Positions 1 to 12,955 of a stretch of DNA of 50,847 bases are shown one piece after another. A program made the position numbers and the translations under genes. This stretch comes from a virus. The DNA lies in the IMG/VR virus record IMGVR_UViG_3300029922_001797, positions 1 through 50,847 of that record, one strand, 5' to 3'. Within the stretch, counting starts at the first letter, position 1. Each line of letters starts with the position of its first letter. The notes below the pieces were generated by a model that was not told the origin of the DNA, searched no databases, and saw only the letters and a list, made by a program, of their open reading frames with translations.

Positions 1-825
1 GCTGTAAAGTGAACTATTGATAGAAGGTTGGCTTCCGTCAGTAGTATAATAAATTGAAGCACCAGCAGTTGCTGAACTTAAACTAACAGTTTGTGAAGAT
101 CCATAAGTACCAGCATTTGGAGAAAATGTAGGAAGAGCAGCCGCTTGACTAACAACCGTTGGAATTACAGTAACTTTGTTGCTAGAGACTGAAGAGGTCG
201 CAGCAGCTACATCCAAAGCAATTGCGGCCTGGGTTTTAGTGGCAATCGCAGCAGCCGAGTCAGAACTGAGGATGGTAGCTTCGATACCGGTAAAACCGAT
301 AGGAGCTGGATTAACGTTAGTTCCGCCCGATACATTGTACCAAATATCGTACTGATTTGTATTACCAGCGGTAAATAGAGTGAAATATGCTCCGGCTCCA
401 AAACTAGGGAAAGCGCTTCCGGCTGGCATTGAGAGAGAAATAACAGGTTGTTGTGCAGGTCCTTGAGTAACAGTGCTAGCACTGAAACCAGATGGCATAG
501 AGATATTTTGAGGACCAGTATTAGGAATGGGCACTCCGATACCTACACCACCAGCCAAATTAGATAAAACGTCTGCTAAAGATGCGATAGGTAATTCGAA
601 ACCGTCTGTAACGAATTCGATGTCACGAGCACTCAAGGCATAATTTCCTAAGATACAGTTTTGAAAATTTTGTGCAACTTGATTTTCCCCAAAACAACTC
701 TCAAGTCGGGTAAAAGAGGACGGTGAAAGTAGGGCTTGAGTTTGGATTGCGTTAATAAGCTCGGCACCAGCAGTATTGTCGCCCATGCCCGAGATTAGAA
801 AGGGAAGAGATGAAGATTGTAACAT
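1..825 (-). CDS. Virion structural protein with chitobiase C-terminal-like domain (partial)
   Basis: The frame is open from the ATG at 825 to the window edge (275 codons), so the C-terminus is missing. A good Shine-Dalgarno (AAGGAG) lies 7 bases before the start. Residues from about 235 on read PTFSPNAGTYGSSQTV then IYYTTDGSQPS. That is the signature of the CHB_HEX_C beta-sandwich found appended to glycan-active and phage surface proteins. The middle part is Ala/Ser/Gly/Thr-rich like the tail proteins at 40-46 kb. I infer a tail or particle surface protein; the exact role is unknown. Confidence 0.7.
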   Translation of the reverse strand, partial: MLQSSSLPFLISGMGDNTAGAELINAIQTQALLSPSSFTRLESCFGENQVAQNFQNCILGNYALSARDIEFVTDGFELPIASLADVLSNLAGGVGIGVPIPNTGPQNISMPSGFSASTVTQGPAQQPVISLSMPAGSAFPSFGAGAYFTLFTAGNTNQYDIWYNVSGGTNVNPAPIGFTGIEATILSSDSAAAIATKTQAAIALDVAAATSSVSSNKVTVIPTVVSQAAALPTFSPNAGTYGSSQTVSLSSATAGASIYYTTDGSQPSINSSLYS

Positions 826-912
826 GGTTTTTTCTCCTTAAATTTTAGTCATATACTCTTACAGACTTACCTAAAAGATTGGATTACTATCGGTCATATG
901 GTATAAACCGTT

Positions 913-938
913 GATTTTATTCAGTTATAGATAAAATC
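913..938. repeat. Inverted repeat between two minus genes
   Basis: GATTTTAT (913-920) and ATAAAATC (931-938) are perfect 8-base arms around a 10-base loop, at the stop codon of the nuclease gene. No long T-tract follows, so it is a weak terminator at best. It may separate the structural gene from the nuclease transcript. Confidence 0.35.
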
Positions 939-1362
939 ACTCCCCATATTTACCAAAATACCGTATAGCACTTCTTAATAGTTTCTTGCTGTCCAATTTA
1001 CCTATGGCCGTATTACACTTTGTACAGAGTAATCCTCTTATTTTACCGGTTTTATGGTTGTGATCTACGCCGAACTTATATTTAAAATCTTTAGGGATTT
1101 TCTTGCAAATAGCACATTTGTTTTTCTGTTCTCGTAACATATTTTCGTAATCGTCTATTGTGATACCGTACTTCTTTTTTAAATTTCTACTTCTATACCA
1201 TTGGGATGATTTCTCATGATGATCTTTCCTCCACTGAATAGCATGCGCGTTCTTACACTTCTTACAAATTGAACGAGGACAAGTCTTCTTGTTTGGTCCA
1301 AAAGTTCTTGTATTGAATAAGTCTAATGATTTCCATTCTTTACATTTAATGCACTGTTTCAT
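937..1362 (-). CDS. Endonuclease VII-like HNH nuclease
   Basis: The 141-aa protein has the recombination endonuclease VII (Pfam Endonuclease_7) layout. An N-terminal Cys cluster (C4xxC7, C28/C33/C36) precedes YGIT..DYE..L, then CAIC (83-86), DHNH at 100-103 with TGKIRGLLC, and CTKC. The DHNH plus paired CxxC motifs bind zinc and form the beta-beta-alpha-metal active site. In T4 the family resolves branched DNA; many phage copies are mobile nucleases. The start overlaps the stop of the upstream 230-aa gene by 4 bases, so it is translationally coupled. Family assignment is confident; resolvase versus homing role is open. Confidence 0.85.
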   Translation of the reverse strand: MKQCIKCKEWKSLDLFNTRTFGPNKKTCPRSICKKCKNAHAIQWRKDHHEKSSQWYRSRNLKKKYGITIDDYENMLREQKNKCAICKKIPKDFKYKFGVDHNHKTGKIRGLLCTKCNTAIGKLDSKKLLRSAIRYFGKYGE

Positions 1363-6674: not shown

Positions 6675-7075
6675 TGGTGGACCTGAGAGCATCGAAGCCC
6701 TGTCCGTCGATCATTTCAAAATCAATCTACGAGCGTAGGCCGTTTAAAGTCCGGCTCAGACTTAGGACCATCACGATTAAATGACGGGCTCCACCATCTT
6801 TGTGTGGCAACCCCAAAGCGGGTATAGAAGCAAGCCAAACTCACCACTTGGATCGGCAGGTGACGCCGTTGTTTCCAGAATTATTTTACACAGTCACTGG
6901 ATACTGCGACAAACTTCTTATTTCTAAGCTGCTTGTAACTCTTCGTACTCTTCGTACAAAGAATCTTGAGAGTCTAACTCTGCATTTGTTTTTGATCAAT
7001 TTTTAAGGTAGCCGTTGATCAACTACCGCTCGCATAATAATGTCCTAAACCTCCGTCGAAAACCTTTACAGGCCC
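6675..7075 (-). ncRNA. ssrA: Transfer-messenger RNA (tmRNA)
   Basis: A 401-nt minus-strand RNA. 5' GGGCCTG (7069-7075) pairs with CAGGTCC (6679-6685), followed by A and an encoded CCA. The D-domain TTTTCGACGG matches the conserved tmRNA 5' motif. A pseudoknot (GGTAG/CTACC, with loop TTGATCAA pairing to 6992-6999) ends 8 nt before resume codon GCA at 6983. The tag reads AELDSQDSLYEEYEELQAA, stop TAG 6924-6926. The 3' end GGACAGGGCTTCGATGCTCT is the T-arm, with a slightly odd loop. tmRNA rescues stalled ribosomes with SmpB and tags the product for degradation. Phage copies are rare. Confidence 0.92.
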
Positions 7076-8541: not shown

Positions 8542-8784
8542 TTATTTCCTTTTATTCTCTAGCCAATCACGGAAACGGTTGGCAGCATCTGGACAAAGGC
8601 CATTCATTTCTTCATAACAAGAAAACTTTTCTGGAGCCTTTACGTATTTTTCACATACATGGATTGACGCCTGATAGCAACCACTTGCGTAACTCATTTC
8701 TGACATCTTCATGCGCCTTGTACGATCTGGATCTGCAGTAGAGCAAGAAGTAATAATTATAAAAAGTAAAAATATCCTAGTCAT
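8542..8784 (-). CDS. Small secreted lipoprotein (80 aa)
   Basis: Hydrophobic signal MTRIFLLFIIITSC with lipobox ITSC (Cys14). The mature part of about 66 residues has four more Cys (GCYQASIHVCEKY, FSCYEE, LCPDA). Predicted to be lipid-anchored in the host envelope. Phage lipoproteins can block superinfection, but that role here is conjecture. Confidence 0.65.
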   Translation of the reverse strand: MTRIFLLFIIITSCSTADPDRTRRMKMSEMSYASGCYQASIHVCEKYVKAPEKFSCYEEMNGLCPDAANRFRDWLENKRK

Positions 8785-12268: not shown

Positions 12269-12955
12269 TTAGAGCTTTTTACTAAATCTATCCATTTTCA
12301 TTTCTTTCCACAGGGCAAGAAAATCGCGTCTCGCTTTGGCTCGATACGCTCTCCACATTCTCTGCTTCATGTGGGCGGAAGGAAGGGTAAGAGCGTTAGA
12401 GGGCAAAAGGGAAGTCCTCACCAGGCGGAAGCCGATGTAGAAGTAGCGAAGGCCAGCGTCGCCGTTGCTGCGCTGGGCGGAACGCAAGAACAGCGGATCG
12501 CCGTACCAACTGCCCCCGCGAAGCACGCGGTACGAACTATCCTTGAACCATAAATCTTGGCACCATTCCCAAACATTTCCATGCATATCGTAAAGGCCGA
12601 ATTTATTAGGCTTCTTTAAGCCTACCGAATGGACTTTATTGCCTGAATTTGTGTAGAACCATGCATAATCTTCTAATTCTTTTTCGTCATTGCCGAAGCA
12701 GAAATCGGTTGTACTGCCTGCTCTGCAGGCATATTCCCATTCTTCTTCAGTAGGGAGTCGGTAGGTATATTTTCCTTTTTTGGAGTTCACTTTACTTAGG
12801 AATTCCTGAACATCGTTCCAGGAGACTTGTTCGACTGGATTTTTATTGCCTTTAAAGTAAGATGGATTATTTCCCATTACTTTTTGCCATTCAACTTGGG
12901 TGCATTGATAGACAGACATTTCAAAATCTTTACCGGGTATTTTAACGAATTTCAT
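12269..12955 (-). CDS. FGE/C-type-lectin-fold protein, probable DGR target
   Basis: 228 aa. VKIPGKDFEMSVYQCTQVEW, NPVEQVSWNDVQEFL, YRLPTEEEWEYACR and LYDMHGNVWEW are the formylglycine-generating-enzyme/sulfatase-modifying (SUMF1) fold. The catalytic Cys pair of true FGE is absent. Near the C-terminus RVLRGGSW...IGFRLVR frames a GC-rich stretch whose exposed residues sit at NNC/NNT codons. This is the pattern left by adenine-directed mutagenesis of AAC/AAT template codons in diversity-generating retroelements. Probably a ligand-binding protein rather than an enzyme. The ~45-residue tail after the variable region is basic. Confidence 0.85.
   Translation of the reverse strand: MKFVKIPGKDFEMSVYQCTQVEWQKVMGNNPSYFKGNKNPVEQVSWNDVQEFLSKVNSKKGKYTYRLPTEEEWEYACRAGSTTDFCFGNDEKELEDYAWFYTNSGNKVHSVGLKKPNKFGLYDMHGNVWEWCQDLWFKDSSYRVLRGGSWYGDPLFLRSAQRSNGDAGLRYFYIGFRLVRTSLLPSNALTLPSAHMKQRMWRAYRAKARRDFLALWKEMKMDRFSKKL
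12417..12531 (-). other. Putative DGR variable region (VR)
   Basis: Spans RVLRGGSW to GFRLVR, clearly more GC-rich than the rest of the gene. The putative variable codons read TAC, GGC, GAT, TTC, AGC, AAC, GGC, GAC, GGC, CTT, TAC, TTC, TAC: each is reachable from AAC or AAT by changing only adenines. No template repeat or reverse transcriptase was seen in this window. Confidence 0.65.

Follow-up and report, generated by a model that had tools for sequence, protein, structure and literature searches.

The gene at positions 12269..12955 (minus strand) of the window, that is, the whole 50,847-nt stretch analyzed (phage record IMGVR_UViG_3300029922_001797), almost certainly carries a genuine variable repeat (VR) of a diversity-generating retroelement (DGR) on a phage that lacks a DGR. 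A sequence-only reading had proposed a DGR target without reverse transcriptase (RT), either orphan or served from elsewhere. This is upheld by the adenine bias, the homing site (IMH), a conserved 3' block, the fold, and the lack of an RT and of a template repeat (TR). The 96,304-nt contig IMGVR_UViG_3300029914_000011 includes the entire window; the two differ at three of the 50,847 nt, none of them in the VR or the rest of the finding. The two near-identical genomes of this bog phage have the same VR, and the one sibling genome compared thus gives no sign of ongoing diversification.

The predicted product of 228 residues is an FGE-type C-type-lectin variable protein (Pfam FGE-sulfatase PF03781, E = 4e-39). 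Its best PDB match by sequence is 2y3c, the DGR variable protein TvpA of Treponema denticola (E = 2.7e-28), and the same entry ranks first by fold (E = 1.5e-18) with the predicted structure of the protein (AF2 model, pLDDT 88). The C-type-lectin fold of a DGR target is, hence, recovered from both the sequence and the predicted fold. TvpA shares the FGE-type fold but is bacterial, whereas the phage protein has a read-through tail of 48 residues. In true FGE enzymes, the C-terminal segment holds two catalytic cysteines (C336/C341 in human FGE). Residues 140-182 of the phage protein contain no cysteine, and the catalytic pair of an active formylglycine-generating enzyme is missing. No effector, tail-fiber or other domain is fused to the 228-residue protein, which is why a binding or decoy role is proposed below.

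The gene body (12533..12955, minus strand) has a phage-like composition (GC 0.38, GC3 0.39), in a window with a mean GC of 38.7% (sd 6.7). The VR (12425..12532, minus strand; codons TAC..CGC, YRVLRGGSW...IGFR), identified by the adenine-column test, has a GC of 0.67 and a GC3 of 0.83. The segment had been described as GC-rich like known VRs, and indeed no other 115-bp stretch of the window reaches its GC content (67%). The GC excess of the VR over the gene body amounts to 0.29, compared to 0.10-0.27 for bacterial VRs. As the latter are likewise richer in GC than their own gene bodies, this richness loses weight as proof of a recent import. At 8633, the 96-kb contig has a second GC peak, which was rejected as a VR; it corresponds to collagen-like GPAGP repeats.

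Bacterial relatives of the window segment show 67-75% nucleotide identity. The adenine test was run against the TRs of related DGRs, taken from RT-bearing loci in the genomes of these relatives, G224 (L146) and G006 (L151), and from a Chlorobiaceae cassette (L006/L160). Compared to these three TRs, the window VR is changed at 16 of the 23 TR-adenine columns and at 3 of the 49 other invariant columns (p = 3.9e-8), and all four letters are represented at the adenine columns. Changes are thus confined largely to template adenines, as judged on the TRs of related DGRs and not on the phage's own. In the positive controls, all 14 differences in the 90 bases of the L006 TR/VR pair lie at TR adenines, as do 16 out of 18 in the G006 pair. 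Ordinary FGE genes were scored by the same test, since constraint at the protein level might mimic part of the adenine signal: non-adenine changes number 3/43 in the window, 0-6/43 in DGR VRs and 11-13/43 in ordinary FGE genes (e.g., Laspinema). At the codon level, the earlier statement that 13 candidate codons are all NNC/NNT holds for 13 of the 14 codons aligned with AAC/AAT in the bacterial TRs (11/14 are NNC; P = 9e-6 given the phage's third-base use) but not for the fourteenth, which is CAG.

The VR ends in the IMH GGCTTCCGCCTGGTGAGGAC (12414..12433, minus strand), identical to that of bacterial VRs. The homing site is of the VR type, GTGAGGAC, whereas both bacterial TRs that reach this point (2/2; G224 and G006) read GTGAGTAC. 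At the standard spacing of +20, a 22-nt block, GCCCTCTAACGCTCTTACCCTT (12383..12404, minus strand), deviates from the consensus at three positions, and no such match was encountered in 100 shuffles. Most of the related bacterial VRs have a block near GCCCTTTTACGCTTTTACCCTT at +20 or +27, around or after the stop codon; in bacteria, this block lies outside the coding frame, and it is absent after the TRs. Retrohoming cannot have delivered the block, which lies outside the TR; ordinary gene transfer is needed for its arrival. In the phage, a TTG codon (12404..12406, minus strand; alignment with L126/L129) replaces the bacterial stop TAG, so that the block is translated into a C-terminal tail of 48 residues (12269..12421, minus strand), with a long helix predicted at residues 194-227. 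The protein does not, as had been assumed, end at IGFRLVR: the frame continues through what is the noncoding 3' flank in bacterial targets. A possible downstream hairpin or cruciform is located at 12346..12396 (minus strand; arms 12390-12396/12346-12352 and 12369-12374/12353-12358). It is weak (z = -2.7, with 1/200 shuffles equally stable; z = -2.55 on a shifted stretch) and is not the canonical stem-loop with a GRNA loop. The bacterial VRs of the group span z-values from +0.6 to -6.

Neither an RT nor a TR had been seen in the window, and the enclosing 96,304-nt contig likewise contains none. RVT_1 has no match in either, and the RT of a complete DGR cassette is thus missing; nor does it match the phage contigs G756 and G757 or five Microcystis phage records. 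A local RT profile gave no match in about 100 viral loci, while the control RT of L006 was recovered at 3e-56. The TR of a complete cassette is missing as well, the VR matching only itself in the 96-kb contig. Pattern searches of viral contigs for a near-identical TR or VR returned only the phage's own contig, and blastn of the VR against plasmid and phage records gave no match. Sampled bacterial genomes of three phyla yielded no matching TR, and their best matches (67-75%) are all VRs; in the third phylum (396 genomes, searched without a positive control), no TR or VR match was found.

Genes of this kind are present on other RT-less phage contigs. Two of these, unrelated to the window phage, both have terminase, portal, head and tail genes. 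IMGVR_UViG_3300012038_000009 (G757) contains one VR in the same gene type, with an IMH and a read-through like that of the window, and IMGVR_UViG_3300021432_000024 (G756) contains three VRs and, over 37 kb, neither a TR nor an RT. The latter three vary at 25/34 template-adenine columns versus 11/88 other columns (p = 1.6e-10). On the G756 contig (L162; 7350-9131 and 3085-3291), an HNH ORF interrupts one FGE gene just upstream of its VR, and two VRs occupy ORFs of their own, roughly 70 codons long and apart from any FGE body. A short IMH pattern was found in eight further viral loci, with a VR in L176 only; the other seven were rejected as chance matches in other frames. L176, a 10.8-kb viral contig, displays three tandem VR-like segments (724-1120, minus strand) spaced about 150 nt apart, the third with the IMH GAGGACTTGCC.

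A protein search added 78 further viral contigs, most with cyanobacterial-type VRs, and dozens of cyanophage contigs possess FGE variable genes without an RT. The RT-less viral contigs L217-L220 (cyanophage-like) and L276 pack six to seven different FGE variable genes into 9-13 kb, which amounts to a small repertoire for each phage. Gp037 of Microcystis phage LMM01 and its relatives, annotated as kinase or hypothetical, resemble the window case in being RT-less, with at least one FGE gene, a variable tip and conserved flanks. Their VR scaffold and 3' end, unlike those of the window, are of the cyanobacterial type and not of the GTGAGGAC group. As other phages without an RT carry such genes too, it may be that phages exploit a bacterial diversity machine or copy what it has produced.

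Cyanophage pairs with gene bodies at least 98% alike, from many metagenomes, have VRs that are at least 97.6% alike. As near-identical cyanophages keep the same VR, rewriting over short periods is infrequent, if it occurs at all. The L204 group and L214, on the other hand, share 91.8% of the body and 96.4% of the downstream flank versus 65.5% of the VR, and for the phage pair L222 and L224, the values are 96.3% (body) and 76.5% (VR). Between LMM01 and MaMV-DC, the flanks are conserved and the FGE tips are different. A codon-position test on phage pairs pointed in the expected direction, with borderline p-values of 0.016-0.12. Taken from sequence comparison, this pattern fits an episodic replacement of the VR, brought about by a host DGR in trans or through recombination with genes of the host, and argues against fast continuous diversification.

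We lean towards the explanation that the VR was taken from a bacterial DGR target and that a host DGR rewrites it in trans inside the phage. The phage would have acquired the 3' end of such a target gene, including the FGE-type C-type-lectin domain, the VR, the IMH and the block, the scrambling of its codons being the work of a DGR located elsewhere, most probably on the chromosome of the host. The window VR would remain a usable acceptor. Once the phage enters a host whose DGR matches, the RT of that host would reverse-transcribe the TR RNA, introducing errors at adenines, and the resulting cDNA would take the place of the phage VR in trans; such events would be episodic and would not happen in each generation. 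Speculatively, the product may be a binding protein that acts inside the host, and perhaps a decoy of the host's DGR-diversified sensors. Several observations speak against rewriting by a host DGR: no TR matching the window VR was found in the sampled genomes of the three phyla, the VRs of both genomes of the window phage are identical, and the hairpin is weak and non-canonical. Moreover, recombination with host genes could also yield the VR divergence between relatives, and the contigs may be incomplete.

An already diversified target end could also have been captured from a bacterium and one variant retained as a fixed binder or decoy, with no DGR action in the phage. This is the main competing explanation, although we rate it as somewhat improbable. 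The identical VRs in the window phage and the constant VRs of near-identical cyanophages from many metagenomes are in agreement with it, as is the post-VR block, which lies outside the TR and, hence, arrived by ordinary gene transfer and not by retrohoming. Against such a frozen state, the IMH and block of the window are preserved as well as in bacteria, the three G756 VRs are compatible with one template, and cyanophage relatives combine conserved flanks on both sides with strongly different VRs. A complete DGR of the phage's own, in a part of the genome beyond the 96-kb contig, is very unlikely. Virus records of this type may be fragments, and the tail-sheath relative Mx1 is 169 kb in size, but the phage DGRs described in PMC12629997 and PMC11792537 have the RT alongside the repeats, G756 and G757 have no RT, and neither do the complete circular genomes of LMM01, MaMV-DC, Mic1 and MaMV-DH01, with the same FGE-VR arrangement. 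Hardly credible is an ordinary FGE-like phage protein with a merely VR-like C-terminus: the scaffold RGGSW...GFR is also kept in genes that have no DGR close by, yet the nucleotide signature, the IMH and the noncoding 3' block are not expected from chance or protein selection.

The DGR of Bordetella phage BPP-1 (mtd/brt/avd) is alike in having its VR in the 3' end of a C-type-lectin gene, a terminal IMH and adenine-specific variation. BPP-1, however, possesses an RT, a TR and Avd of its own, and its target is a tail protein, whereas the window phage has no RT or TR, and its gene is located outside the tail genes. FGE/C-type-lectin variable proteins far from an RT are known from bacteria, in cyanobacteria (PMC7517822) and in Thiohalocapsa PB-PSB1 (PMC10907252). 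In these, the distant TR is matched and the RT is in the same bacterial genome, in contrast to the RT-less phage. Trans action of DGRs is established between loci within one bacterium (PMC10907252), and in an engineered system, a plasmid-borne DGR acting in trans rewrites the VR of a phage (PMC3240598).

It is doubtful, and proposed only tentatively, that RT-less phages routinely parasitize host DGRs via VR-IMH acceptors, through which the host system would mutate phage proteins in trans, possibly as decoys against the host's DGR-diversified sensors. The literature search returned no report of VRs on RT-less phages; its coverage is incomplete, so this is not proof of novelty. Since surveys detect DGRs by an RT with nearby repeats, RT-less carriers would go uncounted. 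Roux et al. state that their survey misses remote targets (PMC8144416), and in one prophage survey, a DGR-positive genome is one with RT and repeats present (PMC12629997). Should phage genomes be rewritten by host DGRs, hypermutation would be a resource common to phage and host in their conflict. An antigen-sensing role has been proposed for FGE-type DGR targets of bacteria (PMC10907252); stand-alone copies of this domain on RT-less phages offer a direct test. Thanks to their cultured hosts and complete genomes, the Microcystis phages already open the question to experiment.

As for the host, the tail sheath of the window phage (47758-49908, minus strand) has a sole match among catalogued phages, Myxococcus phage Mx1 (41%), and several of the DGR relatives belong to genomes labeled Deltaproteobacteria or to the same phylum. 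Together, these sequence matches are only a hint towards the host. Related metagenomes contain several near-identical contigs with a sheath gene. PADLOC gave no match. Other proteins of the window include a resolvase/invertase, an Rrf2-type regulator, a peptide deformylase and several endonuclease VII/HNH proteins. A complete phage-borne tmRNA gene (6675-7075, minus strand; Rfam 65.5 bits; ARAGORN) encodes the tag peptide AELDSQDSLYEEYEELQAA.
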